From Martelella limonii (GTDB lineage Bacteria; Pseudomonadota; Alphaproteobacteria; Rhizobiales; Rhizobiaceae), in the NCBI RefSeq assembly GCF_013344475.1, contig NZ_JABUOU010000005.1:210741-274740 (forward strand): a stretch of 64,000 bases of DNA, read 5' to 3'. Made by a program: the position numbers and the translations under genes. Positions 9,757-44,281 of this stretch are shown here, one piece after another (position 1 is the stretch's first letter; each line of letters begins with the position of its first letter). Below the pieces are notes generated by a model. It made no database searches, was not told the DNA's origin, and saw only the letters and a list, made by a program, of their open reading frames with translations.

Positions 9757-11160
9757 ATGGCCGGGCTCTCCCTCTATGACAAACTCTGGAACGCCCATGT
9801 GGTGGCAACCGCCGAGACCGGTGAAAACCTGCTCTATGTCGACCGCCACCTGGTCCACGAGGTTTCGACCCCGCAATCCTTCGCCATGCTTGACCAGACC
9901 GGCCGAACCGTGCGTGTTCCCGAAGCCCAGCTTGCCGTGGCCGACCATGCCGTGCCGACGCGGCGCGCCGGCCACGCCTTTCCCGATGGACCGGCGCTGA
10001 AGCAGGTCGAGCGGCTGAAGCGCAACGTCTCCCACTACGGCATCACCTATCTGCCGCTCGACGGGCCGCATCACGGCATCGTCCATGTCGCGGGCCCGGA
10101 ACTCGGCTTTACGCTGCCGGGCGCGCTGCTCGTCTGTGGCGACAGCCACACATCCACGCACGGCGCCTTCGGCGCGCTTTCCTTCGGCATCGGCGCCAGC
10201 GAATGCGGCACGGTGCTTGCCACCCAGACCATCTGGCAGAAGAAGCAGAAGACCATGCGGATCCGGATCACCGGCACGCTTTCGCGCGGGGTGACGGTCA
10301 AGGATGTGGTGCTCGGCCTGATCGCCGAGATTGGCACGGGCGGAGGGGTCGGCTACGCGCTGGAATTTGCAGGACCCGTGGTCGAGGCATTGTCGATGGA
10401 ACAGCGCATGACGCTCTGCAACATGGCCATCGAAGCCGGCAGCCGCGTCGGTCTGGTCGCACCCGACGAGACCACGATCGCCTATCTCAAGGGCCGGCCG
10501 CTCGCGCCTGAAGGCGCGCTCTGGGAAGTAGCCGTTGAAGCCTGGCGGGCGCTGCCGAGCGACCCGGACGCCGTGTTCGACCGCGAGATCACATTCGACG
10601 TCACCAATCTCGGCCCGCAGGTCTCCTGGGGCACGACGCCGGAGCAGACGATCTCTATCGGCGCCATGGTGCCGGAGCCCGCCGCATTCGAAGATCCTGT
10701 CCGCCGCAACAAGGCTGCAGAAGCCCAGCGCTACATGGGCCTTGAGGGCGGCAGGCCAATTGCCGGCACCCAAATCGACCGGGTGTTCATCGGTTCCTGC
10801 ACCAACAGCCGGATCGAGGACCTGCGCGCCGCCGCCGCCGTGCTCGATGGCCGCAAGGTCGCGCCCAATGTCGTCGCTATCGCCGTGCCCGGCTCCATGC
10901 AGGTGCGCCGTCAGGCCGAACATGAAGGCCTCGACGCGATCTTCCGCGCCGCCGGTTTCGAATGGCGGGAATCCGGCTGCTCGATGTGCGTCGGCATGAA
11001 TGACGACCGGCTTGAGGCCGGCGAGCGCTGCGCCTCCACCTCCAACCGCAATTTCGAGGGCCGGCAGGGCAAGGGCGGGCGCACCCACCTCGTCAGCCCG
11101 CAAATGGCCGCAGCCGCCGCGATTGCCGGCTGTCTTACCGATGTCCGGGAGTATCTCTGA
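9757..11160 (+). CDS. leuC: 3-isopropylmalate dehydratase-type hydro-lyase, large subunit
   Basis: 467 residues from the ATG at 9757, the standard length for bacterial LeuC. Three cysteines for a [4Fe-4S] cluster are visible: one in [15 protein letters not shown] and two in [32 protein letters not shown] and [12 protein letters not shown] are all LeuC-like. Aconitase-superfamily LeuC/LeuD pairs isomerise 2- and 3-isopropylmalate, and close relatives hydrate maleate, citraconate or dimethylmaleate. The gene is next to hyuAB, a C-C lyase and an amidohydrolase and away from leuA/leuB, so a catabolic maleate-type hydratase role is at least as likely as leucine synthesis. That is inference. Confidence 0.9.
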
Positions 11161-29402: not shown

Positions 29403-31571
29403 ATGCAGCTTTATTGGCCCTATCTGCTAGCCGACTATTACCGGCTGTTGGAATACATGACCGTCATCGTGGCGGTCGTGATCCTGATTTCCTGCATCGA
29501 CGACCTGTTCGTCGATGCGGTCTTCTACATCCGGGCGATCAAGCGGCGACTGACGGCGGAGCGGCGCTATAGTCCCCTCACCCCGGAACAGCTCAAGAAC
29601 CGGCCTGAACAGCATATCGCGATCATGGTTCCGGCCTGGCTCGAAAGCGATGTCATCGCCGCGATGATCGAGGGCATGGTGCACACGCTCGACTATCGCA
29701 ACTACACGGTCTTCGTCGGTACCTACCGCAACGATGCGGCGACAATCAACGAGGTCGAACGCATGCGCAGGCGCTACCGCCAGCTGGTGCGCGTCGAGGT
29801 GCCGCATGACGGGCCGACCTGCAAGGCAGACTGTCTGAACTGGGTGGTGCAGGCGATCTTCGCGCATGAGGAAAAGCACGGGATCGCCTTTGCCGGCACG
29901 ATCCTGCATGACAGCGAGGATGTGCTGCACCCGCTGGAGCTGCGCTTCTTCAACTACCTTCTGCCGCGGATCGACCTGATCCAGATTCCGGTCAATTCGC
30001 TGGAGCGCAACTGGTACGATCTCGTCGCCGGCGTCTACATGGACGAATTCGCCGAATGGCACGGCAAGGATATCGTGGTGCGCGAGGCGCTTGCCGGCAT
30101 GGTGCCGTCAGCCGGTGTCGGCACCTGCTTTTCGCGCAAGGCGCTGCTGACGCTGTCCGCGGAGAACGACAATCAGCCCTTCAATACCCAGACGCTGACC
30201 GAAGACTACGACATCGGGGTGCGGCTTGCCGAGCACGGCATGCGCTCGATCCTTGCCCGCTTCCCGGTCGAGTACAAGGTCAAGCGCAAGACCTGGTTCG
30301 GCTTCGGCCGGGACAAGGACATGACCATCACCATGCCGCTCTGCGTGCAGGAATATTTTCCCAATACGCTGCTGACATCCTACCGTCAGAAGGCGCGGTG
30401 GTCGCTCGGCATCTGCTTTCAGGGCTGGGCCTATTTCGGCTGGCACGGCTCGCTGATCGATCGCTATTTCCTGCTGCGCGACCGCAAAGGCATGGTCACT
30501 GTGTTCGTGACGGTGTTCGCCTATGTTCTGGCGCTGCAATACATCCTGTTCCGGCTCGGCTTTTCGTTCGGGCTCCTGCCGCAGAACTATCCGCCTCTGC
30601 TCTCTCTCGATGGCTGGATCGGAACGGTTCTGATCCTGAACGCGATCGCGCTGATGCTGCGGGTGGTGCAACGCTTCTATTTCACCAGCCGCACCTTCGG
30701 CTGGGAGCACGGCCTCCTCGCCATTCCCAGGATGATTATCGGCAATCTGGTGAACTTTCTGGCGATGTCGCGGGCGTGGAAGCAGTATCTGGTCCATCTC
30801 GCGACCGGCAAGCGGCTCGTCTGGGACAAGACCATGCACGACTTTCCAACCGCCGAAGGCCTGGTCGAAGGACAGGCGAAGCTCGGCGAGCTGCTGGTGT
30901 CGTGGCACGCGATCGACGAAAGCCAGCTCGGCGATTCCCTGAAGGCGCAGGAAGCGAGAGATCTGCCACTCGGCCGCATCCTTCTCGACAGGGGCTGGCT
31001 CGAAGAGGACGTGCTTGCCGAAGCCGTTGCGTTCCAGTCGGGACTGGACATGATCCAGGTGAGCGAGGAGGAGGTGATCAGCGCCTATGATCGCTTCAGG
31101 CCGGATTTCTGCTTCCGTTTCCGGGTGCTGGCGATTGCCGATGGCGACAGCGACAGGCTTGCCCTTGCCACCGCCTTTCCGCTTACGCCAACGGCGCTGC
31201 AAGTCATCGCGGAAGAGCTTGGCTACCAGCCGCGCCAATATATCGTTCTCGACCGGGCCGTGGCGCGGGGCCTCAATCTCCTTGGCGCACACCTGCGTGG
31301 CGGCACCCGTGAGCGCGCGCTTGGCGAAGGCGTGCCGCTGCTTGGCGAAATGCTTGTGAACAAGGGTCTGATTTCCACCGAGGCGCTGCAGCATGCGCTT
31401 GCGGATTATGATCCCCAGCGCGATGGTCAGATTGGCGCCTATCTCGTTTCCCACGACATCGTCTTCAAGAGCGCCGTCGATCAGACTGTGGAGGAGCAGC
31501 GGGCGCGAATGGATAAGTGGGTCCATGAAATCACCGCTGCGGCGGATGACAACAGGAAGGCGCCGGCATAA
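29403..31571 (+). CDS. nfrB: NfrB-like membrane glycosyltransferase (GT2) with C-terminal MshEN-type c-di-GMP-binding repeats
   Basis: 722 residues. One N-terminal helix is followed by a GT2 domain with HDSED (residues about 169-173), TED (about 266) and QKARW (about 329), the processive synthase motifs. Then come membrane helices between about 360 and 460. The C-terminal 230 residues contain two paired LGxxLxxxGxI-type motifs: LGELLVSWHAI / LGRILLDRGWL (about 493-538) and LGEMLVNKGLI / IGAYLVSHDIV (about 646-690). These resemble MshEN domains that bind cyclic di-GMP. E. coli NfrB has the same order of domains and makes a ManNAc polymer under c-di-GMP control (established). Its start follows the BcsB-like gene by 14 bp; its stop overlaps the next start. 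Confidence 0.82.
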   Translation: MQLYWPYLLADYYRLLEYMTVIVAVVILISCIDDLFVDAVFYIRAIKRRLTAERRYSPLTPEQLKNRPEQHIAIMVPAWLESDVIAAMIEGMVHTLDYRNYTVFVGTYRNDAATINEVERMRRRYRQLVRVEVPHDGPTCKADCLNWVVQAIFAHEEKHGIAFAGTILHDSEDVLHPLELRFFNYLLPRIDLIQIPVNSLERNWYDLVAGVYMDEFAEWHGKDIVVREALAGMVPSAGVGTCFSRKALLTLSAENDNQPFNTQTLTEDYDIGVRLAEHGMRSILARFPVEYKVKRKTWFGFGRDKDMTITMPLCVQEYFPNTLLTSYRQKARWSLGICFQGWAYFGWHGSLIDRYFLLRDRKGMVTVFVTVFAYVLALQYILFRLGFSFGLLPQNYPPLLSLDGWIGTVLILNAIALMLRVVQRFYFTSRTFGWEHGLLAIPRMIIGNLVNFLAMSRAWKQYLVHLATGKRLVWDKTMHDFPTAEGLVEGQAKLGELLVSWHAIDESQLGDSLKAQEARDLPLGRILLDRGWLEEDVLAEAVAFQSGLDMIQVSEEEVISAYDRFRPDFCFRFRVLAIADGDSDRLALATAFPLTPTALQVIAEELGYQPRQYIVLDRAVARGLNLLGAHLRGGTRERALGEGVPLLGEMLVNKGLISTEALQHALADYDPQRDGQIGAYLVSHDIVFKSAVDQTVEEQRARMDKWVHEITAAADDNRKAPA

Positions 31572-33916
31572 TGGCCACCGTTCTGCACCTATCGAAGCAT
31601 TCGATTGCCGCGATCCTGATGGCAACGGCCGGAATTCTGCCGTTTTCAGGCCATGCCTTTTCCCAGGAGGAGGCCGATCCGCAGCCTGGGGTCGAGGTCG
31701 ATGCGCTTCCGCTCTCCGGGCCGGCGCTTCTTCTTTACCGCAATGCCGAGCTCGCGATCACCGATGGCAATCCCGGAAAGGCCGTCTCCGACCTCACCGA
31801 GGCGGTTCGCCAGCGGCCGGATTGCGCGAAGCTGCGTGCAGCCCTGGTCTCGGCCCTGCGCAAGGGGGGCCGCGATGGCGAGGCGACGGCTGCAGCTGGC
31901 GCGGCTGCCAGCGATGACCGGCTTCCCGCAGACGGCCGGCAGCGCCTGCAGGCCATGGCAGCCGGCGCGGAGCTGCGCGATGGCGCATCTGTGGACGCCT
32001 GCCAGATAGAGGTGCAGCCGGGAGCCCCGGCAGTCGCCGAAAGGCCTGTCGCAGTGCCTGGCCCTGCCGGCCCGCCGGCGAGCACCGAGGCCGCGTCTGC
32101 GGTTGCCGAAACCGATCCGGCCTACGAGGCGGCGGATGCCGCCTACCGCGCCTATGCCCGCGCCGATTATCAGGGCGCCGTGGCCGATGCCGAAAGGGCG
32201 GTCGCGCTTGCCCCCGACAATGGTGATTACCAGACGCTTCTGGCAAATGCGCGCGCCGCGCTGAAACGAAGCGAGGCAAAGCCCCCACCGCCGGATCCGG
32301 CCTTTGGAGCGGCGAGCGTCGCCTATGCGGCGCTGCGCGACAATGATCTCGACAAGGCTCTGAGCGCCGCGCGCCGCGCCGCAAGTCTTGCTCCGTCGAA
32401 CCGCGCCTATCAGCTGCTTCTGATCGATGTCTTGAACCGCTCCGGCCGGCGCGATGAGGCGCTGGCGGCCGTCGACCGCACGATTGCCCGTTTCGGCGCC
32501 GATCGCGCCCTTTTGAGCCAGCGCGGCGTGTTGCATCAGGAGGCAGGCGATCAGGCTCTTGCAAAGGCGGATTTCGCCCGCGCGTTGACGCTTCCCGGCA
32601 GAACGCCTTCCGAGGCCGATCTGCGCCTCGACCTTGCGACCACCGCCATGGCGCTTGATGCGCCTCAGGAAGCCTATCAGGCGCTGCAGCCGCTCGGCGA
32701 CAGCCGCAATGCAGCCGTCTGGCTGCTGCGCGGCCGGGCGCTCACCGCAACCGAAAACTACACCGCCGCCGCGACCGCGCTTCAACAGGCCGCGGCACTC
32801 TCCCAAACCGATCGCCAGCGCGCCGATATTACCGTCGCCCGGCTCGACCTGATCGACGCCGAGAGCGGCGAGCGGAGCGCGCGCGCGGCCTTTGGCGCTG
32901 CCGAGCAGGACGGTTCGCTCTCCGCCCTTTCGGCGACGGACACGGCCTATCTTGCGGCAAGGCTCGGCGATCGTTCGATTGCCTACGATGCCTTTGCCGA
33001 GGCCTATGGCGCGGGCCAGCTCGGCGACCGGCAGCTGATCGATGCTGCCTATGCGGCGCGGCGGGACTATCAGAACGATGCGGCCATCGCCTGGCTGAAA
33101 CAGGTCATCGACGCGGCCGACGCCGGACGGCTGCAGCTTTCGCCGGAAGAACTCTATGGGCTCAGGCGCCAGGTGTCGGATATTACGCGGCGCTGGGGCG
33201 CCAATATCGGCCTGTTCTACGGCAGCAGCGGCATTGGCGACGGCTATCTGACGCCGCCGGCGTCTGCCGGGCGGACCATGCAGCTTGGCACCGAGTTCTA
33301 CTGGCGGCCGGAAGCATTCGGCTACCGCGACGGCCGCACCGTCGATTTCTTCATCCGCCAGTTCACCACGCTTTACGATTCACTCGATGGCGCGATCGGC
33401 GCTTCCACCATGCAGGGAGCGGCAGGCGTGCGCGTCAAGCCGTTCACCAATCTCAACGTCATTGTCGAAGCCGCGCAATATTTCAAGATCGGGCGAGACA
33501 GCCGCGACGACTTCTTGCTGCGCGCGGCCATTTCCGGCGGCTTCAACAATGATCTCATGCCCTGGAAAGACCAGTGGTGGTCCGGCCAGTATTATGCCGA
33601 GGCCGGCAGCTATCTGGTAAGCGGCGAGAATTTCTGGGATGCCAATGCCAGTCTTGGCCGCAGCTACAGGCTGGGTGGCGACGGCGGCCGGCTGGTGGTC
33701 ACGCCCTTTGTCGGTGTTTCCGCCGATTTCGACAATCTGGATGCAAACACATTCGCGCTTGGCGCGGGCCCCGGCGTGAACGTTCGTTACTGGTTCCGCG
33801 AGACCAAGTACCAAGCGCCGATGTCGCATCTGGATTTCAACGTCCAGTACCGGGCGCGGCTTGGCGGTGATGACAGGGCGCGCGGATGGTTCGCCACTCT
33901 CAACCTCGCACTGTAA
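31571..33916 (+). CDS. NfrA/BcsC-like TPR outer-membrane glycan export protein
   Basis: 781 residues, start overlapping the nfrB stop (TAATG). A signal peptide ends near GHAFSQ. Residues about 45-500 are Ala-rich helical repeats of TPR type, e.g. ADYQGAVADAERAVALAPDN and [20 protein letters not shown]. From about residue 540 the sequence changes to alternating beta strands with many Tyr/Trp/Phe (FYWRPEAFGYRDGRTVDFF) and ends in LNLAL, an outer-membrane barrel. This is the BcsC/NfrA architecture: periplasmic TPR scaffold plus barrel for glycan secretion. In E. coli NfrA is the phage N4 receptor component. Gene order identifies it as partner of the preceding synthase. Confidence 0.8.
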   Translation: MATVLHLSKHSIAAILMATAGILPFSGHAFSQEEADPQPGVEVDALPLSGPALLLYRNAELAITDGNPGKAVSDLTEAVRQRPDCAKLRAALVSALRKGGRDGEATAAAGAAASDDRLPADGRQRLQAMAAGAELRDGASVDACQIEVQPGAPAVAERPVAVPGPAGPPASTEAASAVAETDPAYEAADAAYRAYARADYQGAVADAERAVALAPDNGDYQTLLANARAALKRSEAKPPPPDPAFGAASVAYAALRDNDLDKALSAARRAASLAPSNRAYQLLLIDVLNRSGRRDEALAAVDRTIARFGADRALLSQRGVLHQEAGDQALAKADFARALTLPGRTPSEADLRLDLATTAMALDAPQEAYQALQPLGDSRNAAVWLLRGRALTATENYTAAATALQQAAALSQTDRQRADITVARLDLIDAESGERSARAAFGAAEQDGSLSALSATDTAYLAARLGDRSIAYDAFAEAYGAGQLGDRQLIDAAYAARRDYQNDAAIAWLKQVIDAADAGRLQLSPEELYGLRRQVSDITRRWGANIGLFYGSSGIGDGYLTPPASAGRTMQLGTEFYWRPEAFGYRDGRTVDFFIRQFTTLYDSLDGAIGASTMQGAAGVRVKPFTNLNVIVEAAQYFKIGRDSRDDFLLRAAISGGFNNDLMPWKDQWWSGQYYAEAGSYLVSGENFWDANASLGRSYRLGGDGGRLVVTPFVGVSADFDNLDANTFALGAGPGVNVRYWFRETKYQAPMSHLDFNVQYRARLGGDDRARGWFATLNLAL

Positions 33917-34809: not shown

Positions 34810-36447
34810 TTAATCTTCAACGCCCGAGAAGAACCGGATCACCCTGTCGCGCATCGTGTCCATGGTCGGATCGGGTTCATCGGCGGCAGGGATCATGCCG
34901 GGGGTGAACCATTCGGTTTCAAACCTTTCGACGAGATTCCGATCGCGGCTGATGATATGGACCGGCACATCGCGCGAGGCATCCGGACCGGTGATGATGG
35001 GGGCCGGCTGGTGATCGCCGAGCACGATGAAGACGCCGTCGTCCCCGAAGCGGGCAATATAGTCGCCGACCGTCTGCAGCGCGTAATCGATGGTGCCGAT
35101 ATACTGCCGCTGCACCCGTTCCCGGTCAGCCCAGACCACTGCGGGCGGATCGCCGCTCGTTGCCTGGGCGTCGAACACGCTGCCATCGCCGACATCGGCC
35201 CAGTCGATGAGGGTCGGAACGGGCGTCCAGGGCGCATGGCTGGAGATCAGGGCGATCTCCGCCATCACCGGGCGCGGGTCGCCGTCATGGCGGACCAGCC
35301 GGTCGAAGGCCGACAGCGTGTACTGGTCGGGCATCGTCACCCAGTTGAACGGCTTGCCCTTGTAGCCGAGGTCCTTGGCGGCGAAGATCGTCTCGTAGCC
35401 GTAATAGGCGCTCTCCGGCCAGTCCATGGTGATCGCCGGCATCACGGCGGCGGTGCGCCAGCCGTTTTCATGAAACAGCCGGTTCAGGCTCTTGCGACCG
35501 CTGATCATCAGACGGTCGTACCGCGCCTGGTTGTCGACCCAGAGGCCGGAAAGGAAGGTGCCATGGGCAAGCCAGCTCAGGCCCCCCATGGTCGGAGACC
35601 GGCTCCAGCCGCTTGCCGTGGCAAAGCCCGCCTTGGTCAATTCCTGTTCGATCGCGCCGAGCCGTGGATCGATCAGCGGCGCGTAAAGCGGGTCCTCGAT
35701 CGCGCTCCGGCCATAGGATTCGATGAAGATCAGAACGACATCGCGGCCCTTGACCGCCGAGAACAGGCTGTCGGTCTCTGCCGCAGGATCGTCTCCGGCA
35801 AGCGACTGGTCGAAGAGCTGCATGTCCTTGACGGAGCGCGCAACCGCCTCGACACGGTGAACGATATAGACGGAGCTGCCCGCATCCGCATAGGCGCGCG
35901 TTCCCGTGGCAGCGCCGGTGCCCCAGAGCACGATCCCCAGCGCGAGCAGGGCGGCGAAGCCGAAGCCGGCCGTCTTTTCCGCCCGGCCTGAAAGCCGCGC
36001 GAGTGCAGAAGCGGCGCGGAAAAAGACGGCAAGCACGGCAAGGAAGGCGAGGATCGTCAGGGCTACGGCAAGGCCCGCGCCAAGCGCGCCGACAGCGCCG
36101 GAAAACACGTTCCAGCCATCGGCAAAGATCCGGAGGTCGAGATAGGGGTTGAACGGGCGCTGAAACGCCGATTGCACGCCGATATCGCCGAGCCGAAGAA
36201 ACAGAACGATGCCCAGCGCAAGCGTCGCAAGCATCGCGAGCAGGCGCGCCAGCCGCGCGGGCAGCAGCACCAGAGCAAGGCCCAGGATCGGGACTTCGAT
36301 CGGCAGGTGCAGGAATGCTTTCGCCGAAAACGCATGCGGATGGTCCGGCAGGTTCAGCACGAAAACCGCGATGACGAGGAAGACAAGCGCGGCCACGAAT
36401 GCCCGTGCCTGCCGGTTTTGCTTGCAAGCAACCCGATCAGCCATCAT
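34810..36447 (-). CDS. Membrane sulfatase-family (alkaline phosphatase superfamily) transferase
   Basis: 545 residues (a second ATG is one codon in). Four to five transmembrane helices occupy residues 1-190, followed by an extracytoplasmic sulfatase-fold domain. VVLIFIESYGRS supplies the first metal Glu, SPTMGGLSWLAHGTFLSG the nucleophile region, and FIVLGDHQPAP the Asp-His metal pair. This is the architecture of LtaS, OpgB and lipid A phosphoethanolamine transferases, which move phospho-alcohol head groups onto glycans or lipids. It converges on the glycan operon and is divergent from the flippase-like gene, so it could modify either the exported glycan or a lipid from the downstream cluster. 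Confidence 0.8.
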   Translation of the reverse strand: MMADRVACKQNRQARAFVAALVFLVIAVFVLNLPDHPHAFSAKAFLHLPIEVPILGLALVLLPARLARLLAMLATLALGIVLFLRLGDIGVQSAFQRPFNPYLDLRIFADGWNVFSGAVGALGAGLAVALTILAFLAVLAVFFRAASALARLSGRAEKTAGFGFAALLALGIVLWGTGAATGTRAYADAGSSVYIVHRVEAVARSVKDMQLFDQSLAGDDPAAETDSLFSAVKGRDVVLIFIESYGRSAIEDPLYAPLIDPRLGAIEQELTKAGFATASGWSRSPTMGGLSWLAHGTFLSGLWVDNQARYDRLMISGRKSLNRLFHENGWRTAAVMPAITMDWPESAYYGYETIFAAKDLGYKGKPFNWVTMPDQYTLSAFDRLVRHDGDPRPVMAEIALISSHAPWTPVPTLIDWADVGDGSVFDAQATSGDPPAVVWADRERVQRQYIGTIDYALQTVGDYIARFGDDGVFIVLGDHQPAPIITGPDASRDVPVHIISRDRNLVERFETEWFTPGMIPAADEPDPTMDTMRDRVIRFFSGVED

Positions 36448-36499
36448 GACTTGCCTTCTCTAAGCGGCCGATGGGCTGCGACTTGGAAAGGAGCGGCTC

Positions 36500-37417
36500 T
36501 TGTCCGCATATGCAGTCCTCGCGGTGGTTTTCTGTCTGGCAATCATTGCCGGACTGGTCATGGCTGTCGATCCCGCCGATGTCCTGGCGGCGTTCGAAAA
36601 CGTGTCGCTTCCACCCGTCCTTGCCGCGCTTGCCATCGTCCAGGCCCAGGTCGTCCTGTCGGCGCTGCGCTGGCGGTTTACGGCCGGCAGGCTTGGGCAT
36701 GCAATCCCGATCGGCCTTGCGATCCGGGAATATTACATTGCAAGCTTGGTCAACCAGGTCCTGCCCGGTGGCATGGCGGGCGATGCGATCCGCGGCTATC
36801 GCGCCCGTACGGCGGATGACTGGAAACGCCCGGCGGCGGCGATCGTGCTGGAGCGGCTTTCCGGTCAGCTTGCCTTCTTCCTGCTGGCGGGTGTCGGGTT
36901 GTTTGTCTGGCCTCTGGTGCTGGCCGAAAGCCTGCCGCCCGGCTTCGGCCGTCTCGTTCTCATCTGCGCGGGGATATTGGCCGTTTTCGCCTGTCTCGGG
37001 CTCGTCATCGCCCGTTCGCGGCTGATGGCGCGGTTTGCCACGTTGAAGCCGGATCTCGCCGCCGTCTTCTGGCATCGCGGTGCATTTGCCGTGCAGTTCG
37101 GCCTCAGCATGCTGACGGTGCTGTCCTATATCGCCGTGTTCATGATCGCGGCGGCGGCCACGGGGGCGGCCCTGCCGCCGGTTGCAGCGATCACCATCAT
37201 CCCGCTCTGCCTGATGACGATGCTGATCCCGGCAGGCATCGGCGGCTGGGGAACGCGCGAGGCTGCCGCCGCGGCGCTCTGGCCGCTTCTCGGGCTGACC
37301 AGCGCCGAGGGGCTTTCGGCGAGCCTGCTTTACGGTCTGCTCTCGCTCCTGGGTGTCGCGCCGCAAGGTCTCCTGTTTCTGGCGATCACGTTTCGGCGCG
37401 GTCATGGCCGGCGGTAA
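36500..37417 (+). CDS. Lysylphosphatidylglycerol-synthase TM-domain / AglD-like integral membrane protein
   Basis: 305 residues from a TTG at 36500 with AGGAG 12 bases upstream. It has seven to eight hydrophobic helices. Conserved-looking segments of the family are LSALRWRF, YYIASLVNQVLPGGMAGDAIRGYR, ERLSGQLAFF and IPAGIGGWGTREAAAA. Members are proposed flippases or accessory membrane proteins for lipid-linked products. No catalytic soluble domain is attached. It is divergent from the sulfatase-family gene and its last 16 bp overlap the convergent CDP-alcohol transferase gene. Confidence 0.82.
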   Translation: MSAYAVLAVVFCLAIIAGLVMAVDPADVLAAFENVSLPPVLAALAIVQAQVVLSALRWRFTAGRLGHAIPIGLAIREYYIASLVNQVLPGGMAGDAIRGYRARTADDWKRPAAAIVLERLSGQLAFFLLAGVGLFVWPLVLAESLPPGFGRLVLICAGILAVFACLGLVIARSRLMARFATLKPDLAAVFWHRGAFAVQFGLSMLTVLSYIAVFMIAAAATGAALPPVAAITIIPLCLMTMLIPAGIGGWGTREAAAAALWPLLGLTSAEGLSASLLYGLLSLLGVAPQGLLFLAITFRRGHGRR

Positions 37418-38211
37418 CGCCGGCGGGCAAGGCCGAAGACATCGACGCCGAAGGAATAGGTGATCAGGATAAGTGCCGTTGCGGCAATCGCCGTCGAAAC
37501 CGGCGGCGCGATCGCCGGCGCGAGGATCAGACAGAGTGCCGCCACCTGAACGACGCAGATCAGCTTGCGGAGGAACGATGGCGGCAACGGCGCGGTGAGA
37601 AACGGCAGACATATCTGCCCCAGAACGAAGCCATAGCGCATCAGTCCGATCGCGAGCACCCAGATGCCGGCCTTGCCGAGAAGGAAGGCGGCGACGGACA
37701 GAAGCAGGATCAGCAGCGCATCGACCTCCATGTCGAAGCGGGTGCCGAGCGAAGACTGAAGCCCCGTGCGTCGCGCCAGGTTGCCGTCGATCCCGTCAAG
37801 CGCAAGCGCAAGGATCACGATCACGATCAGCCAGGTCAGCAGAGGATCGGCCTCTGCCGCCGGTTCTGCAAACAGGATTGCCGCGCCGAAAAAGCTCGTC
37901 AGGGATGCGCGGATGGCGGTGATGATGTTGGCGGGCCCGAACCGTTCATGCGGGTGGCCCGGCAGCGAGCGGATCACGATCGCGAAGATCGCAAGCAGCA
38001 GCAGCGCCGCCGCGATCGGGGTCGCAAGGCCTGTCTCGAAGTGATAGGCAAGCAGGCCGAACGCAGCAAGCGATACGGCGTAGACTGCGCCGAGCGCCAG
38101 CGCCGCATTCTTCAACCGGCGCCACGCCGCATCCCGGTCGCCATGACGGGCAGCAAGCGCGATGCGGTGAAGCTCTCCCGACCCGGCTGTCGGCGGTCCA
38201 AACGTGCTCAT
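37402..38211 (-). CDS. CDP-alcohol phosphatidyltransferase
   Basis: 269 residues with about six to seven transmembrane helices. The complete CDP-alcohol motif DG-x2-AR-x8-G-x3-D-x3-D is present, starting at DGNLARR and ending FDMEVD near residues 140-162. The first 35 residues are a soluble extension. Family enzymes transfer a phospho-alcohol between CDP-diacylglycerol (or another CDP-alcohol) and an acceptor alcohol in the inner membrane. It starts 6 bp after the ribA stop, so it is co-transcribed with GTP cyclohydrolase II, an unusual combination. The acceptor cannot be read from the sequence. Confidence 0.87.
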   Translation of the reverse strand: MSTFGPPTAGSGELHRIALAARHGDRDAAWRRLKNAALALGAVYAVSLAAFGLLAYHFETGLATPIAAALLLLAIFAIVIRSLPGHPHERFGPANIITAIRASLTSFFGAAILFAEPAAEADPLLTWLIVIVILALALDGIDGNLARRTGLQSSLGTRFDMEVDALLILLLSVAAFLLGKAGIWVLAIGLMRYGFVLGQICLPFLTAPLPPSFLRKLICVVQVAALCLILAPAIAPPVSTAIAATALILITYSFGVDVFGLARRRYRRP

Positions 38212-38217
38212 GGCGCC

Positions 38218-39324
38218 CTATTCTGCCGCAACCAGGCTCTCGAGCGTCAGGAGGTGCCCAGCCCTGATCGCCTTGGTCCGCAGGTAATTGACGTTTTCGC
38301 GGGTGACTTCGCCGGTCACCGTGACCTGCCCGACGACATCTATGCCGTTCTTCAGCAAGCCGTCGATCTTGGTCGGGTTGTTGGTATGAAGCACCACGCG
38401 CTGCATGCCGAGAAGCCGCAGCATGGCGGCCGCTGCCTCGTAGCGGCGATGATCGCTGGCAAGACCGAGTTCGGCATCGGCGTCGATGGTATCGAGGCCC
38501 TGGTGCTGATAGCCATAGGCGCGCATCTTCGCGCCGATCCCCGTGCCGCGCCCTTCCTGATCGAGATAGAGGAGCACGCCGCCGCCTGCAGCTTTCAGCT
38601 GCTTCAGCCCGTTGCGAAGCTGATCGCCGCAGTCGCATTTGAGCGAGCCGCAGAGGTCGCCGGTCAGGCAGGAGGAATGGATGCGCACCGCTACGGGTTT
38701 GGAAAGGTCCGGCTTGCCGACGATGATGGCGACCTGATCCTTCTGGGCGAGACCGCCCCGGAAGACCGCGAAATCCGCGTCTCCGATCTCCTTCAGCGGC
38801 ACGCGCGTGCGAACCACGGGCTGGAATTCCTGCCGCGCGGCATCGCTTCTTCCGAATGCAGTGACATCCAGGCTCTCGCAGGCCGCGAACCGGCTGTCGC
38901 CGGCCGAAAGCTCATGCGTCACCATGGCGGGCAGCAGCAATGCCAGCCGCGCGAGATTGGCCGATGAAGCCATCAGCGCTTCGGCCTGTAGAAAGGTCCC
39001 GGGCTTTTTCTCGCCGAGCGCATAGGCAAGGCGCGCGGCATCGTCGAAGCTCTTGCCCGCAAGCGGGACAGCGATCCCGCCTTTTGACGCGATGCCGAGC
39101 CGCTCGGCCCGCTCGTCCGTCAGAAACAGGCTGTGACGGTTTTCCGATGCGCGTGCGAAGCGGTCAAAGACCGCCGGTGTCACGCAGTCGAGCGCCAGTG
39201 TCGCAAGCCGCCGGTCGCCGTCGCGAAGGATCACCGGGCGTCCAAACCTCAGTTCGGCCACAGCCCTTTCCACCGCAATCTCGGGCGTAACCGACTGGAA
39301 ATCGCTGAAATCATCATTTGTCAT
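38218..39324 (-). CDS. ribA: GTP cyclohydrolase II with degenerate N-terminal RibB-like domain
   Basis: 368 residues from the ATG at 39324, with GGAGGAAACGAC upstream. The C-terminal half is a full GTP cyclohydrolase II: HSSCLTGDLCGSLKCDCG holds the three zinc cysteines, YLDQEGRGTGIG the catalytic region, and TNNPTKIDGL with NVNYLRTKA the remainder. The N-terminal 170 residues align in layout with DHBP synthase, but the acidic active-site stretch is replaced (VILRDGDRRLATL), so RibB activity is unlikely. It converts GTP to the diaminopyrimidine precursor of riboflavin. Here it heads a two-gene operon with a CDP-alcohol transferase and is divergent from the BchC-like gene. Confidence 0.9.
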   Translation of the reverse strand: MTNDDFSDFQSVTPEIAVERAVAELRFGRPVILRDGDRRLATLALDCVTPAVFDRFARASENRHSLFLTDERAERLGIASKGGIAVPLAGKSFDDAARLAYALGEKKPGTFLQAEALMASSANLARLALLLPAMVTHELSAGDSRFAACESLDVTAFGRSDAARQEFQPVVRTRVPLKEIGDADFAVFRGGLAQKDQVAIIVGKPDLSKPVAVRIHSSCLTGDLCGSLKCDCGDQLRNGLKQLKAAGGGVLLYLDQEGRGTGIGAKMRAYGYQHQGLDTIDADAELGLASDHRRYEAAAAMLRLLGMQRVVLHTNNPTKIDGLLKNGIDVVGQVTVTGEVTRENVNYLRTKAIRAGHLLTLESLVAAE

Positions 39325-39538
39325 GTCGTTTCCTCCGCGTCGTTCGCCCCGCCTGGCACCCATTAAAAGATGTGTCGGGGCAAACCGGATCATTGTGACG
39401 TCCGTTATAGAAACGTCTGATCTCTTTAAGTGGTTTAGTCTGCTCCACAAAAAAGATCATTGGAAGCTGAACTTTATGTGAGCCGGAACAATGCGCGTGC
39501 CATAAGCGTCTTTGGATTCACGGGGTTTGGCGAGACAA

Positions 39539-40549
39539 ATGGAGAAGAGCGTGCAGGAAAAAATACTGTCTGGAAGCCCGTCCTTTCCCTGTTCCGCGAC
39601 CGCTCTCTGGTTTCAGCAAGCCGGACAATGCGTCTTGCGCGAGGAGAAAATCGCCGCGCCCTCCGATGACGAGGCGCTGGTCGAGACACTGTTTACGGGC
39701 ATCAGCCGGGGCACGGAAAAAGTTGTCTTTCATGGACAGGTGCCTCAAAGCGAACAGGGCCGCATGCGCGGACCGAACATGGAAGGCGATTTTTCCTTTC
39801 CCGTAAAATATGGCTATGCCGCCGTCGGCCGGGTGATCGCGGGCCCGGCGGACCTTGCCGGTCGCTCCGTCTTCTGTCTCCACCCCCATCAGGACCGGTT
39901 CGTGGCCCCTGCCGCGATGATGACGCCGCTTCCCGATGCCCTGCCGCCGGAGCGTGCGGTTCTTGCGGCCAATATGGAAACCGCACTCAACATCGTCTGG
40001 GATGCAGGCATCCAGCCCGGAGACACCGTTGCCGTTTTCGGCGCCGGCACGGTGGGCGCGCTGGTTGCCTATCTCTCCAGCCGGATACCGGGCACCGAGA
40101 CGACGCTGATCGATCCGAACGAGAGCCGCGCCGGGCTGGCAGAAAAACTCGGGATCTCGTTCAGCACCGGCGCGTTTTCCGGACCTTTCGATGTCGCGGT
40201 CAATGCCTCGGGTTCGGAGCAGGCGCTTGCAAGCGCGCTCGGCGCTGCCGGCAAGGAAGCGCGGATCGTCGAGGCAAGCTGGCACGGCGAGGGAGAAACC
40301 ACCATCCCGCTTGGCGGTTCGTTTCATGCCATGCGGCTTTCGATCGTCAGTTCGCAGGTCGGCACATTGCCGCCATCGCACCGCGCCCGCTGGACTTTTT
40401 CCCGGCGCATGGCCAAGGCGCTCGCGCTTCTTTCAGATCCGCGCCTTGACGCCCTGATCTCGGGGCACACTTCATTCGGGGACATTGTTTCGGCCTATCC
40501 CGGCATCCTGTCATCGCCCGACACGCTCTGCCATCGCATCTACTACTGA
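39539..40549 (+). CDS. BchC-like MDR dehydrogenase lacking zinc-site motifs
   Basis: 336 residues, ATG at 39539 (an in-frame TTG at 39512 is the alternative). The N-terminal GroES-like domain has LFTGISRGTEKVVFHG, as in the bacteriochlorophyllide dehydrogenase BchC group. The nucleotide-binding domain has VAVFGAGTVGALVAYLSS near residue 170 and TTLIDPNESR. The GHE motif and four-cysteine structural zinc lobe of classical alcohol dehydrogenases are absent. It is the first of four coupled plus-strand genes with the pterin-synthase-like, glycosyltransferase and methyltransferase genes. Likely an NAD(P)-dependent oxidation or reduction of a pathway intermediate; substrate unknown. Confidence 0.78.
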   Translation: MEKSVQEKILSGSPSFPCSATALWFQQAGQCVLREEKIAAPSDDEALVETLFTGISRGTEKVVFHGQVPQSEQGRMRGPNMEGDFSFPVKYGYAAVGRVIAGPADLAGRSVFCLHPHQDRFVAPAAMMTPLPDALPPERAVLAANMETALNIVWDAGIQPGDTVAVFGAGTVGALVAYLSSRIPGTETTLIDPNESRAGLAEKLGISFSTGAFSGPFDVAVNASGSEQALASALGAAGKEARIVEASWHGEGETTIPLGGSFHAMRLSIVSSQVGTLPPSHRARWTFSRRMAKALALLSDPRLDALISGHTSFGDIVSAYPGILSSPDTLCHRIYY

Positions 40550-40561
40550 GGAAAAGAATTC

Positions 40562-40960
40562 ATGTTTGCAGTCGAGGTTCGCGATCACATCATGATCGCA
40601 CATTCGCTTCCGCGTCCGGTATTCGGACCCGCCCAGGCCATGCACGGCGCCACGTTCGTCACCGACGCGGCGTTCTTCACGCGCGATCTCGACGAGGACG
40701 GGCTTGCGGTCGATATCGGCGCGGCGACCACGGTTCTGGGCGAGGTGCTGAAGCCGCTCAACTATCAGAATCTCGATGAGGTCGAGGCGTTGAATGGCAA
40801 GGTAACGACGACCGAGGTGATCGCAAAGTTCATCTTCGACCGGCTCGCCGAAGCGGTTGCCGACGGCCGGCTCGGGCCTGGCAGCCACAGGATCTGCAAG
40901 ATCCGCGTGACCCTCCATGAAAGCCATGCCGCGCGCGGCTGGTACGAGGCCGAGCTTTGA
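40562..40960 (+). CDS. 6-pyruvoyl-tetrahydropterin synthase/QueD-family protein with altered active site
   Basis: 132 residues, 12 bp after the dehydrogenase gene. The T-fold pattern is clear: MIAHSLPRPVFGPAQAMHG at the start, DIGAATTVLGEVLKPLNYQNLDE and TTEVIAKFIFDRL in the middle, and VTLHESHAARGWYEAEL at the end. The family HGHxY zinc motif is HGATF here, losing one zinc His. The Asp-His pair in LDHxxLN is Asn-Tyr (LNYQNLD). The late Glu that grips the pterin ring is kept (HES). It probably still binds a pterin-like ring but should not run canonical QueD or PTPS chemistry. Its stop overlaps the next TTG start. Confidence 0.83.
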   Translation: MFAVEVRDHIMIAHSLPRPVFGPAQAMHGATFVTDAAFFTRDLDEDGLAVDIGAATTVLGEVLKPLNYQNLDEVEALNGKVTTTEVIAKFIFDRLAEAVADGRLGPGSHRICKIRVTLHESHAARGWYEAEL

Positions 40961-41991
40961 AACTCGTCTTTGCCTATCCCGGCAACCTCCAGCTTCGAAC
41001 CGGCGGCTATGGCTATGACCGGCGGTTGATCGCAGCGCTTGAGGATGCGGGATGGCAAGTCGAGCGTCTGCCGCTCGGCGATGGTTTTCCAGCCCCGGCG
41101 GCAAACGTGAAACGGGCGGCGGAACAGGCGCTTTCATCGCTCGCCGATGGCACGCTGGTGATGATCGACGGTCTGGCCTTCGGCGTGCTCGACGACTTTG
41201 CCGCGCGCGAGGCAAAAAGGCTGAGGCTCGTCGCCCTGGTTCATCACCCGCTATCGCTTGAGACCGGCATATCCGCGACGGAAGCGTCGCGCCTGCGCGA
41301 CAGCGAACGCCGCGCACTGTCCCATGTCCGCCATATCGTCGTCACCTCTCCGGAGACTGCGCGGGAGCTTTCAGCCGGTTTCGGCGTGACGCCGGAGAGC
41401 ATCACGGTTGCCGTGCCGGGCACCGATGCGGCCCCTGCGGCAACGGGAAACGCGCGCGGGCCGCACATCCTCTCGATCGGGTCGCTGACCGCGCGCAAGG
41501 GACATGATGTGCTGATTTCCGCGCTGAAGATGATCGAGGACCGCGACTGGACGGCGACGATTGCGGGGGGCCGCGATCTCGATCCGGCCACCGCTGCCGC
41601 ACTTGAGCGGCAGATTGCCGACAGCGGCCTTGCGGAACGGATTTTGCTGCCAGGATCGGTTGACGATACCGGCCCGCTTTACGCCGGCGCGGACATCTTC
41701 GCCCTTGCAAGCCGCTATGAAGGCTATGGCATGGTGTTCGCCGAGGCGCTGGCCCGCGGCCTCCCCATCGTCGCCTGCCGCGCGGGTGCGGTGCCCGATG
41801 TGGTGCCGGAGACCGCCGGCATGCTGGTGCCGGTGGATGATACCGCGGCCTTCGCCGATGCGCTGCGGCGCCTCATCACTGATCCGCAGCTGCGCCGGGA
41901 AAAGGCTGCGGGCGCGAGACAGGCCGGAAGCCGCCTGCCCGACTGGGCCGAAACGGGCCGGATCGTTGCAAACATGCTGGAGACAATTTGA
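40957..41991 (+). CDS. GT4-family glycosyltransferase
   Basis: 344 residues from a TTG at 40957 that overlaps the previous TGA. It has a GT-B fold with C-terminal GT4 motifs: ILSIGSLTARKGHDVLISAL, then LYAGADIFALASRYEGYGMVFAEALARGLPIVA with the E-x7-E pattern near residues 255-263. The N-terminal part has NLQLRTGGYGYDRRLIAAL, typical for acceptor-side GT4 domains. No membrane helix is visible. It is coupled to the pterin-like and methyltransferase genes and is likely to glycosylate the small molecule made by this cluster. Donor and acceptor unknown. Confidence 0.88.
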   Translation: MKLVFAYPGNLQLRTGGYGYDRRLIAALEDAGWQVERLPLGDGFPAPAANVKRAAEQALSSLADGTLVMIDGLAFGVLDDFAAREAKRLRLVALVHHPLSLETGISATEASRLRDSERRALSHVRHIVVTSPETARELSAGFGVTPESITVAVPGTDAAPAATGNARGPHILSIGSLTARKGHDVLISALKMIEDRDWTATIAGGRDLDPATAAALERQIADSGLAERILLPGSVDDTGPLYAGADIFALASRYEGYGMVFAEALARGLPIVACRAGAVPDVVPETAGMLVPVDDTAAFADALRRLITDPQLRREKAAGARQAGSRLPDWAETGRIVANMLETI

Positions 41992-42782
41992 TGAGCTTTG
42001 ACGCAGACTGGCTGAGCCTCAGGGAACCTGCGGACAGGGCCGCACGCCATCAGGGGCTGATGGAGACATGCGCGCGCCACCTCGCGCCGGTCGCCGATCC
42101 CCTGATCATCGATATCGGCTGCGGTACCGGCTCGACACTTCGCAGCCTTTCGAATGTCATGCCCGGCGACGCCCGGTGGCTGCTGGTCGATAATGATCCG
42201 CGCCTGCTCGATCGCGCGGCGGAACTCTCCGGGGATAAGGCCCGTGCCGACTACCAGCAGCTCGATCTCAACGCACTCGATCGGCTTCCGCTCGAGAGTG
42301 CAGCCATGGTGACGGCCTCCGCGCTTTTCGATCTCTGCTCCGAGGCTTTCACCTCGGCCTTTTCCGACGTGCTCTCACGCCATCGCATCGGACTTTACGC
42401 CGCCCTGAACTATAATGGCCGGATCGGCTGGTCCGTATCCCATCCGCTGGATGAAAGCGTGGTCGAAAGTTTCAACCGGCACCAGCAGACCGACAAGGGG
42501 TTCGGCGTGGCGCTCGGCCCGGCAGCGGCGGAGCGGCTTGAAGCTCTTTTGGAAAGCCGCGGCTTCAAGGTTGAAACCGGCGACAGTCCCTGGCGTCTGT
42601 CCGGGGAGAGCGCTGCCCTTCAAAAGGCCTTCGTCGAGGGCTTCCGCCAGCCGCTGCAGGAGATCGGCGGGCTGTCATCGGGTGAAATCGAGGACTGGAT
42701 TGCCTTCAGGATCGCAGCGACCGCGCTTCAGGACAGCCATTGCACCGTCGGCCACACCGATATCATCGCATTACCTGCCTGA
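41991..42782 (+). CDS. Class I SAM-dependent methyltransferase
   Basis: 263 residues; the ATG at 41991 overlaps the glycosyltransferase stop (TGATG), and a TTG one codon earlier is possible. Motif I is LIIDIGCGTGSTLRSL near residue 38, the acidic SAM-ribose contact is LLVDNDPRLL, and motif II-like DLNALDRLPLESAAMVTASALFDL follows. The C-terminal half lacks features that identify the substrate. It ends 12 bp inside the convergent RibD-like gene. It would methylate an intermediate of the cluster product. Confidence 0.85.
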   Translation: MSFDADWLSLREPADRAARHQGLMETCARHLAPVADPLIIDIGCGTGSTLRSLSNVMPGDARWLLVDNDPRLLDRAAELSGDKARADYQQLDLNALDRLPLESAAMVTASALFDLCSEAFTSAFSDVLSRHRIGLYAALNYNGRIGWSVSHPLDESVVESFNRHQQTDKGFGVALGPAAAERLEALLESRGFKVETGDSPWRLSGESAALQKAFVEGFRQPLQEIGGLSSGEIEDWIAFRIAATALQDSHCTVGHTDIIALPA

Positions 42783-43523
42783 GAGCGCGCAGTCGAACAG
42801 GATATCGCTGCCGAGATTGTAGATGTCGGCCTTTGGGCGTGGTGCGTCCACAAGCCGCGCAACGGGTGAAAGATTGAGCCCGCTCGGGCCCGCACCGATG
42901 ATCAGCGGAGAAATCGCGACATGCAGCCGGTCGACGTTGTTCTCTTCGATGAACCGGGCAATGGTGCGTGATCCGCCTTCCACGAGAATGCGGGAAAGGC
43001 CGCGCGCGGTGAGGACGTTGACGATATCGCGGGTCGCAAGCCCTTTGCCGGAGGGCGCGAGGCGAATGATCTCGGCGTTCGGCAGGATCCGCGTGTCCGT
43101 GGCCGTGCTTTCGATCACGATCACCGGCGCGCCGCCATCATGAAACAGGCCCTCGCTGCCATCCAGCGCGCCGTTGCAATCGATCACCACGCGCACGGGT
43201 GACGGACCCTCGACCAGCCGGACGGACAGACGCGGATTGTCGGCCTTCACGGTGTTGAGGCCGACGATCACGGCATCGACCAGCGCCCGGCAGCGATGCA
43301 GATGGAGAAGGCCGTCAGGGCCCGAGACATCCATGGCATCGCCGGAAGGCGTCGCGATCCGGCCGTCGAGCGACTGGCCGACCTGGGCAAGAACGAAGGG
43401 CCGCTTGGCGCCGGCAATCTTGCCGTAGAGCACTGTCGCTGGATCATCGCCCGATAAGGGCGCGCCACCGCGCACCGCCAGCAGACGTTCCCAGACGGAA
43501 GCGTTCAGTTCGATGGCTTTCAT
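42771..43523 (-). CDS. RibD C-terminal/dihydrofolate-reductase-like reductase
   Basis: 250 residues, only the reductase half of RibD; the zinc deaminase half is absent. Family signatures are FVLAQVGQSLDGRIATPSGD near residue 43, the HLHRCRALVDAVIVGLNTVKADNP stretch with the NADPH-binding region, VRVVIDCNGAL, and GLSRILVEGGSRTIARFIE. RibD reductase uses NADPH to reduce the ribosyl side chain of the GTP cyclohydrolase II product (established). The cluster thus has both the RibA and RibD-reductase steps of early flavin synthesis with no riboflavin synthase or lumazine synthase. It lies 3 bp upstream of the cytochrome b561 gene, so they are likely co-transcribed. Confidence 0.87.
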   Translation of the reverse strand: MKAIELNASVWERLLAVRGGAPLSGDDPATVLYGKIAGAKRPFVLAQVGQSLDGRIATPSGDAMDVSGPDGLLHLHRCRALVDAVIVGLNTVKADNPRLSVRLVEGPSPVRVVIDCNGALDGSEGLFHDGGAPVIVIESTATDTRILPNAEIIRLAPSGKGLATRDIVNVLTARGLSRILVEGGSRTIARFIEENNVDRLHVAISPLIIGAGPSGLNLSPVARLVDAPRPKADIYNLGSDILFDCALSGR

Positions 43524-43526
43524 GCG

Positions 43527-44084
43527 CTACAGGATCCGGTAGAGGGTGAAATCGCGGCGGATCACATGATGCATCAGCACCGCACCGATATGGAGCACGA
43601 ACAGGACGGCGAGGATCCACGCGGTCACCAGATGGATGGCGGACAGGGTTCCGGCAATATCGGGCGCTTTGCCGATCGGGCTCCAGATCGGCAGGACGCC
43701 GAACCAGGTGAACGGAAAGCCGTGTGCGTTCGTGGCCAGAAAGCCGCTCAGCGGCATGATGATCAGGAAAAGATAAAACATGCCGTGGACGGAAGCGGCC
43801 ACGATCTGTTCGATCCGTGGTCCATCTTCTTCCGGCTTGCGCGTCAGAAGCCGGTTGCCGACCCGCAGCAGCATCAGCCACAGGACCAGAAAGCCAAGGC
43901 TTTCGTGGATCATGTAGAAATCGAGCGAGACTTCGTTCTTCACGAATTTGATGACCATGCCGAGCGGCCATGTCAGCAGCACGAGAACGGCGATCACCCA
44001 GTGAAGGATGCGCGAGGTCGCGGGATAGCGCTCGACCTCTATTGCAAGCCGCGACGGCGTGCCCGGTCCTGTCTTTTCGTTCAA
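43527..44084 (-). CDS. Cytochrome b561-family diheme membrane protein
   Basis: 185 residues from a TTG at 44084, preceded by GGGAGAAAGAA; an ATG at 44165 gives a long extension without membrane sequence. Four transmembrane helices carry the heme histidines: RILHWVIAVLVLL, FYMIHESLGFLVL, AASVHGMFYLFLII and VLHIGAVLMHHVI. It follows the RibD-like gene with a 3-bp gap on the same strand. Family members transfer electrons from ubiquinol or to superoxide (CybB). The transcriptional link to the pterin-like cluster suggests, but does not prove, a redox role there. Confidence 0.83.
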   Translation of the reverse strand: MNEKTGPGTPSRLAIEVERYPATSRILHWVIAVLVLLTWPLGMVIKFVKNEVSLDFYMIHESLGFLVLWLMLLRVGNRLLTRKPEEDGPRIEQIVAASVHGMFYLFLIIMPLSGFLATNAHGFPFTWFGVLPIWSPIGKAPDIAGTLSAIHLVTAWILAVLFVLHIGAVLMHHVIRRDFTLYRIL

Positions 44085-44281
44085 TTCTTTCTCCCGATCT
44101 GCCGGCCGGCACGAATACAAGGCGCAATGCGCAGGCCGATCTGTCACGCGAAGATAGCAGTGCATGGTATCAGGGTAAATCAGACAGGTGGTAAAGTCTG
44201 TGCACAGTCGCGCAGAAGGCAAACCGTCCGCCCTCCGGCTTCATGCCGGAGCGCTGCGCGTAGCACCGGCCGACCGCCGGA

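Follow-up and report, generated by a model that had tools for sequence, protein, structure and literature searches.

A 64,000-nucleotide stretch of the Martelella limonii genome, referred to here as the window, carries a compact gene cluster around a protein of the PTPS-IV subfamily. We tentatively propose, at a little under an even chance, that the cluster encodes a dedicated pathway leading from GTP to a pterin-type compound that is glycosylated, methylated, and perhaps lipid-linked, and that this pathway was probably spread by transfer. Seven genes within 6.1 kb (37402-43523) are predicted to encode a CDP-alcohol phosphatidyltransferase (37402-38211, minus strand; PF01066, CDP-OH_P_transf, 61.9 bits), a paralog of GTP cyclohydrolase II (GCH II), here RibA (38218-39450, minus strand), an MDR dehydrogenase (39512-40549, plus strand), the PTPS-IV T-fold protein (40562-40960, plus strand; PF01242, 75 bits), a GT4 glycosyltransferase (40957-41991, plus strand; PF13692, 112 bits), a class I S-adenosylmethionine-dependent methyltransferase (41988-42782, plus strand; PF13649, Methyltransf_25, 39 bits), and a RibD_C reductase (42771-43523, minus strand; PF01872, 122 bits). 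A sequence-only reading of the window had pointed to a GTP-derived, decorated product. All of the genes that it named were found, between 34810 and 44222, and the 6.1-kb span was confirmed. Its statement that four genes are translationally coupled holds for the PTPS, GT4, and methyltransferase genes, which are tightly joined by 4-base overlaps, while the dehydrogenase gene is close, 12 bases before the PTPS gene. On the minus strand, ribA lies 6 bases from the phosphatidyltransferase gene and the reductase gene 3 bases from a cytochrome b561 gene.

Recurrence of the gene set

A search of genome contigs for PTPS-IV confirmed at least 587 relatives, and 80 loci were kept. Among loci picked by the PTPS gene, 105 were grouped as alphaproteobacterial, including one (L082) whose record is titled Aquiluna; a beta/gammaproteobacterial group of 14 was defined by record title or by membership of the same phylum but another class, and 10 of 20 plasmid records with a PTPS gene were examined. 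Three duplicates (L034, L035, and L039) and L217, which has a weak PTPS match and no other cluster genes, were left out of the locus counts, and no further near-identical pair was present among the 105. Some loci end at contig ends, so all locus counts are lower bounds.

The alphaproteobacterial loci contain the dehydrogenase in 100 cases, the methyltransferase in 99, GT4 in 94, RibD_C in 65, RibA in 40, and the phosphatidyltransferase in 34, with GT2 (47), FkbM (42), and creatininase (3) genes as further neighbors. The same partners appear in the 14 beta/gammaproteobacterial loci (dehydrogenase 14, GT4 14, methyltransferase 13, RibD_C 13, phosphatidyltransferase 10, RibA 6; further, GT2 6, creatininase 4, FkbM 3, sulfatase-like 3, cytochrome b561 1) and in seven actinobacterial plasmid loci, three of which have PTPS-IV alone (dehydrogenase 4, GT4 4, methyltransferase 3, phosphatidyltransferase 3, RibD_C 2, RibA 2, creatininase 2). 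As a control, the same queries were applied to 79 stretches of the window's own genome (78 of 20 kb and one of 15 kb, on two contigs). One stretch each matched the dehydrogenase, GT4, and RibD_C, and none matched the methyltransferase, RibA, phosphatidyltransferase, flippase-like protein, or any remaining query other than creatininase. If the stretch holding the riboflavin operon, omitted from this control, is counted in, RibA and RibD_C each have one match more. Since the core genes are frequent in the 105 loci and nearly absent from the control stretches, chance is a poor explanation of their linkage. When co-occurrence was checked across relatives, as the sequence-only reading had advised, the genes did not scatter and formed one recurrent module.

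Streptomyces, Microbacterium, and Thiodictyon share the gene order dehydrogenase-PTPS-GT4-methyltransferase, as do beta/gammaproteobacterial genomes and four haloarchaea. The set thus extends over three proteobacterial classes (Alpha-, Beta-, and Gammaproteobacteria) and Actinomycetota, and haloarchaea have it with another type of PTPS. Distance correlations among the four core proteins are 0.75 to 0.85 over 47 loci, values by which co-transfer cannot be told apart from vertical inheritance. At the level of whole genomes, PTPS-IV is present in 89 of 297 genomes of the order (matches of at least 60 bits, with nine genomes having only weak QueD-like matches dropped) and in 28 of 398 genomes of the phylum at an E value of 1e-10, one of these being weak. 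RibA of the cluster type occurs in 53 of the 297 (NF006456 at 240 bits or more; 16 also exceed 464, the cut-off of the model), and 46 of these 53 also carry PTPS-IV, in genomes that are related and not independent. In locus L090, a gene for a protein family of about 343 residues (6053-7084) stands upstream of the dehydrogenase gene and beside a GT2 gene; the family is found in 11 other loci, and a Pfam scan of two members gave no match.

Ten haloarchaeal loci, six chosen by the dehydrogenase and four by PTPS, contain the dehydrogenase in 10 cases, PTPS in 9, the methyltransferase in 9, GT4 in 8, the phosphatidyltransferase in 6, creatininase in 2, and FkbM in 1. L179 and L227 are 99% alike and L224 and L225 95% alike, so these counts represent fewer independent cases, and both creatininase cases are one lineage. 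The archaeal dehydrogenase is 38% identical to that of the window (E 2e-68) and the phosphatidyltransferase 31% (E 6e-15); GT4 of Haloarcula pelagica is not alignable to the window's, while those of other haloarchaea align at 32%. Six haloarchaeal PTPS rows have PGPEG or PGQEG and no FGPAQ, with the H-S-H zinc histidines kept. Judged by these alignments, the archaeal module is a homologous dehydrogenase with the same types of genes, not a full set of close orthologs.

Predicted activities of the core proteins

By its motifs and fold, the cluster PTPS belongs to the described PTPS-IV subfamily of COG0720. Its FGPAQ segment (F21-Q25), which marks PTPS-IV in PMC5445326, is invariant in 24 of 24 aligned homologs, as are His9, His14, His28, Glu120, and His122, the last being changed in two actinobacterial members. 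The same paper gives CxxxHGH as the motif of QueD/PTPS-I; at this motif and at the catalytic Cys-Asp-His, the cluster protein has Ala24, H28-G29-A30, and Asn67-Tyr68. Alignment with a solved animal PTPS places Ala24 at the Cys of its CxxxxxHGH-type stretch, Ala30 at the second His of HGH, and Asn67-Tyr68 at an Asp-His pair, positions that we take to be the catalytic triad and zinc-ligand sites of PTPS. Of the earlier label "PTPS/QueD-family", the PTPS part stands, but the protein is a PTPS-IV and falls short of QueD, whose model gives 32.1 bits at a cut-off of 89.25. An AlphaFold model (mean pLDDT 91.7) has as its top Foldseek structure PDB 3d7j, SCO6650 of Streptomyces coelicolor (TM 0.93, 55% identity), which is also the nearest solved structure by sequence. 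SCO6650 reportedly has neither zinc nor triad and does not catalyze PTPS chemistry, and a pterin has been suggested as its ligand. Apparent PTPS gene fusions in four genomes (G287, G077, G131, and G170) were rejected, as the long frames merely cross neighboring dehydrogenase DNA in another frame. No inference was drawn from a PTPS tree, where a short alignment leaves the deep branches unresolved and the two QueD outgroup rows are long branches, one (L152) being a wrong match.

The PTPS-IV section of PMC5445326 (2017) describes a cluster of 561 sequences, function not established, with PF00925 and PF01872 neighbors; both domains are in the window. PF00925 is called FolE2 there, but in Pfam that accession stands for GTP cyclohydrolase II, and FolE2 has PF02649, a mislabeling that changes the meaning of this neighborhood. 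The signature, the fold, and the PF00925/RibD_C neighbors are thus common to that literature and the cluster here, but the section names only these two domains; what the present analysis adds is the dehydrogenase-GT4-methyltransferase-phosphatidyltransferase core, together with its archaeal counterpart. The sequence-only reading knew of no characterized pathway with this set; given the section just cited this was overstated.

RibA scores 469.9 bits against NF006456 (cut-off 464). As listed it has 410 residues, of which the N-terminal part has no family assignment and the family match starts at residue 55; the listed frame is probably too long, the likely true start being an ATG near 39324. Aligned with the GCH II chain 2bz0, it has the cysteine motif and, at the switch position, Tyr312, so that family score, motif, and switch residue all agree with GCH II. 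Spoonamore reportedly found in 2006 that Met at this position leads to a formyl product, and SCO6655, with Met120, is said to make the formyl intermediate. Elsewhere in the genome a bifunctional RibD, RibBA, and RibH lie together. Because of these separate genes, the cluster RibA looks like a dedicated paralog, in keeping with the earlier inference that the diaminopyrimidine intermediate is diverted to another product.

Among 48 loci with RibA, the switch residue is Tyr in 44, Leu in 2 (L049 and L131), and Met in 2. The Met-type proteins are those of both Streptomyces clusters having RibA, and a creatininase gene is present in both. BrbF, formerly annotated as a creatininase, deformylates the formyl intermediate, according to the account of this enzyme in PMC9478397. 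In the haloarchaea, GTP cyclohydrolase IIa is annotated in three Haloarcula loci and one Natrarchaeobaculum locus, placing GCH III in 4 of the 10 loci, and Pfam GCH_III (PF05165) was confirmed for one archaeal locus. Three solutions for opening GTP are thus found beside the core: Tyr-type GCH II, Met-type GCH II accompanied by creatininase, and archaeal GCH III. That different enzymes for one step accompany one core suggests the diaminopyrimidine ribotide as the starting point of the pathway, and we regard this as our best argument. A strict rule pairing creatininase with Met-type GCH II was rejected, as four Tyr-type loci have a creatininase and the two Leu-type loci have none within their stretches; creatininase matches also occur in 3 of the 79 control stretches.

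The reductase consists of RibD_C only. As noted in the sequence-only reading, the deaminase half is missing from the cluster; this domain (PF00383) is present in the genome's RibD beside RibBA. The top PDB match of the reductase is 6p8c, a 2,5-diamino-6-ribosylamino-4(3H)-pyrimidinone 5'-phosphate reductase, and the name of the second, 2azn, refers to the uracil form. Of two family models, both below cut-off, the one for the C-terminal part of bacterial RibD (138 bits) scores above the one for the archaeal reductase (105.3). The first enzymes are of the same families as those that start riboflavin synthesis (GCH II or GCH III, BrbF/ArfB, RibD_C or the archaeal reductase), but the cluster has no deaminase domain or lumazine synthase and has PTPS, the dehydrogenase, GT4, and the methyltransferase instead.

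The MDR protein matches ADH_zinc_N at 23.2 bits (cut-off 31.8). Its best NCBIfam is BchC (TIGR01202), the bacteriochlorophyllide dehydrogenase, at 64.7 bits, far under the equivalog cut-off of 291.25, and its relatives also occur in Streptomyces and haloarchaea. The gene earlier named "BchC-like dehydrogenase" encodes an MDR dehydrogenase whose likeness to BchC stays below the family cut-off. Aligned with archaeal and actinobacterial relatives, the protein has SRGTE and YGY at what are presumably the zinc-ligand sites of zinc MDRs and so would lack the usual catalytic zinc ligands; an invariant Asp201 suggests the use of NAD+. PDB relatives of the GT4 protein include, at distant similarity, an inositol-phosphate glycosyltransferase and PimA-type enzymes.

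Lipid-related and other neighboring genes

Of 53 loci with a match to CDP-alcohol phosphatidyltransferases, 52 have the sequence D-x2-D-G-x2-A-R-x8/9-G-x3-D-x3-D, which we take to be the motif of this family; the best PDB matches of the window's protein are choline/ethanolamine phosphotransferases, and weak. The gene is next to that of the dehydrogenase in Natronorubrum, Streptomyces, and Microbacterium; in Haloarcula pelagica it stands at a distance of one gene. An intact motif and a GT4 distantly like PimA-type enzymes recall phosphatidylinositol(-phosphate)/PIM pathways, but the head group here would derive from GTP. An LPG_synthase_TM flippase-like protein is encoded at 36500-37417 (plus strand; PF03706, 137 bits). 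Such a gene is near PTPS in 25 of 105 alphaproteobacterial, 8 of 14 beta/gammaproteobacterial, and 3 of 7 actinobacterial loci, and follows the methyltransferase gene in Microbacterium and two Streptomyces plasmids. The lipid link suggested earlier is plausible, since the phosphatidyltransferase and flippase genes recur in other phyla, but in the alphaproteobacterial group the former accompanies only a minority of PTPS genes.

At 34810-36447 (minus strand) lies a gene for an accessory membrane protein with no Pfam or NCBIfam match at E 0.001. A weak PDB match to a lipoteichoic acid primase (E 0.002) and the sulfatase annotation of the Rhizobium sp. SL42 gene at the equivalent position suggest a sulfatase/phosphoglycerol-transferase-like protein; sulfatase-like genes are near PTPS in 31 of the 105 alphaproteobacterial loci. 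Cytochrome b561 (43527-44222, minus strand; PF01292, 94.6 bits) is a frequent neighbor, in 49 of 105. Pfam families above cut-off among these genes are LPG_synthase_TM, CDP-OH_P_transf, GTP_cyclohydro2, PTPS, GT4 families, Methyltransf_25, RibD_C, and cytochrome b561. A promoter and terminator scan gave no signal exceeding shuffled sequence, and an Rfam scan of the window zero matches at gathering score. An ARAGORN call of tRNA-Gln at 32858-32935, inside a long TPR-like frame (31571-33916), is probably false.

Proposed pathway, alternatives, and meaning

Family assignments and the exchange of genes at the first step suggest that the GCH II paralog would ring-open GTP to the 2,5-diaminopyrimidine ribotide. 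The stand-alone RibD_C protein may then reduce the ribosyl chain to ribityl, the zinc-less dehydrogenase may oxidize a secondary side-chain hydroxyl, and the PTPS-IV protein could bind the heterocycle and guide ring closure or side-chain chemistry, followed by decoration by GT4 and the methyltransferase. Less firmly, the phosphatidyltransferase might join the compound to a phospholipid and the LPG_synthase_TM protein flip it. Since the cluster lacks a deaminase, the 2-amino group is probably retained, which would make the product pterin-type. Pterin glycosides of cyanobacteria and Chlorobium presumably start from products of GTP cyclohydrolase I (GCH I), unlike the proposed route. By their description, those systems likewise involve a pterin-type compound and a glycosyltransferase (PMC5683033; review PMC13259868).

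Several observations weigh against this proposal. The product and the enzyme activities are predicted only. In the alphaproteobacterial loci RibA is linked in only 40 of 105 and the phosphatidyltransferase in 34, and 7 of the 53 genomes with cluster-type RibA are without PTPS-IV. Creatininase accompanies Tyr-type RibA in 4 of 44 loci, a poor fit to the gene-exchange argument. Near the haloarchaeal loci RibD_C is found in 0 of 10, the archaeal PTPS is of a different subtype (24% identity, E 6e-4), and the archaeal methyltransferase is barely similar to the window's. Three Streptomyces plasmids (L138, L139, and L165) carry PTPS-IV (around 10001-10399) with no cluster nearby; their neighbors are MBL-fold, cupin, sigma-70, and BTAD-regulator genes, with a MEKHLA-domain gene in two of the three. 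Finally, the sequence of the reductase does not reveal which ribotide it prefers, the deaminated or the non-deaminated, and deamination could come from the RibD encoded elsewhere in the genome; these two points lower our confidence in a pterin-type product and, slightly, in the folate supply considered below, and raise that in a flavin-like product.

A flavin, lumazine, or deazaflavin (F420-like) derivative nevertheless has only a small chance of being the product. GCH II and RibD_C are riboflavin-family enzymes, RibD's deaminase domain could feed a deaminated intermediate, and a statement in PMC5041015, citing unpublished work, ties PTPS-IV to F420 synthesis. RibH is elsewhere, however, and the cluster's own RibD-type protein has no deaminase domain, so that the deazaflavin part of the sequence-only reading is not supported, despite the domain in the genome's other RibD. 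No radical-SAM domain was found in 10 recurrent neighbor proteins scanned, F420 genes (CofG/CofH) not having been searched genome-wide. Two independent adjacent modules seem unlikely, though they deserve some weight: one of pterin type (RibA, RibD_C, dehydrogenase, PTPS), the other for a glycolipid or surface glycan (GT4, methyltransferase, phosphatidyltransferase, flippase, sulfatase-like, often GT2 and FkbM). The minority status of the phosphatidyltransferase, flippase, and sulfatase-like genes and the frequency of GT2 and FkbM in the alphaproteobacterial loci would fit such a division; it is opposed by the overlapping chain of PTPS, GT4, and methyltransferase genes, consecutive in most lineages seen, and by the position of the phosphatidyltransferase gene at or one gene from the dehydrogenase gene in other phyla. 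That the PTPS gene is simply a queuosine QueD, with RibA serving riboflavin and the clustering incidental, is scarcely credible. Homologs are annotated as 6-carboxytetrahydropterin synthase, and this is the sole PF01242 match of the genome, but the QueD score, the Ala, Asn, and Tyr at the presumed catalytic sites, the Ala at the third zinc His, and the presence of RibBA, RibD, and RibH elsewhere all speak against it.

We also considered, as an improbable extension of the proposed pathway, a GCH I-independent pterin route common to bacteria and archaea. GCH I reaches a 2'-keto intermediate by an Amadori rearrangement, and T-fold proteins handle pterin-type rings. Oxidation by the dehydrogenase of the 2'-hydroxyl of the reduced, ribityl GCH II product could yield the same intermediate. 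Ring closure by the T-fold protein might follow, giving a 7,8-dihydroneopterin-type phosphate, to be glycosylated, methylated, and put on a phospholipid, or in haloarchaea mounted on an archaeol lipid; a membrane-anchored pterin might perhaps exchange electrons with cytochrome b561. In lineages with neither FolE nor FolE2, the bypass might also feed folate. Besides these inferences, the idea draws on an excess of GCH I-less genomes among carriers of PTPS-IV. FolE is absent from 15 of the 297 order genomes, of which 11 carry PTPS-IV, versus 78 of the 282 genomes having FolE, and FolE2 was absent in 12 of 12 FolE-less genomes tested, including the window's own (three of the 15 lie outside the test). 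Eight of the 11 belong to one genus, g63 (G064, G100, G159, G183, G206, G226, G245, and G262), all eight sampled genomes of which have PTPS-IV and no FolE or FolE2; G245 is closest, among named loci, to Acuticoccus yangtzensis (L131). The excess is a lead, suggestive but non-independent, with few independent losses.

A supply of dihydroneopterin-type pterins by the cluster without GCH I, for folate as well as its own product, has these counts in its favor, but we find it highly improbable. Two of the 11 carriers (G246 and G262) are only 89% complete, and the four FolE-less non-carriers are 61, 71, 76, and 93% complete. FolE is kept by 78 of the 89 carriers, and by Martelella radicis and M. mediterranea. 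Of the 80 named loci, 50 were entered in a FolE test whose results cover 49, the Acuticoccus locus not among them; it found 11 carriers without FolE, 10 of them with FolE2, so that 48 of 49 have one or the other. In 1.575 of the 4.54 Mb of the window's own genome no folP, folK, or folE motif was found; the folE motif was detected in M. radicis, and the folP and folK motifs had no positive control. That genome (G000, rated 100% complete) has no match to FolE (PF01227) or FolE2 (PF02649), through an assembly gap or a true loss. A folE gene appears in the gene listing for Methylobacterium extorquens in PMC3621897, with no direct bearing here.

The PTPS-IV subfamily, its structure, and part of its neighborhood were known; the recurrent dehydrogenase-PTPS-GT4-methyltransferase set, often with the phosphatidyltransferase, and the three GTP-opening routes are new. 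No report of this set or of an established function was found in the open-license literature, which omits most subscription papers. PTPS-IV has a solved structure, and the literature, as far as the cited sections go, gives it no established function apart from a single unpublished claim on F420. The genes that accompany it now outline a concrete, testable candidate pathway around a marker gene present in at least 587 contig stretches. Found in many soil and marine bacteria and, in related form, in halophilic archaea, the gene block resembles an uncharacterized assembly line from GTP to a sugar-bearing, perhaps membrane-linked, pterin-like molecule. If the pterin is indeed lipid-linked, membrane lipids would have a head group of a new class, and if GCH I is bypassed, the pterin ring would have a second origin.

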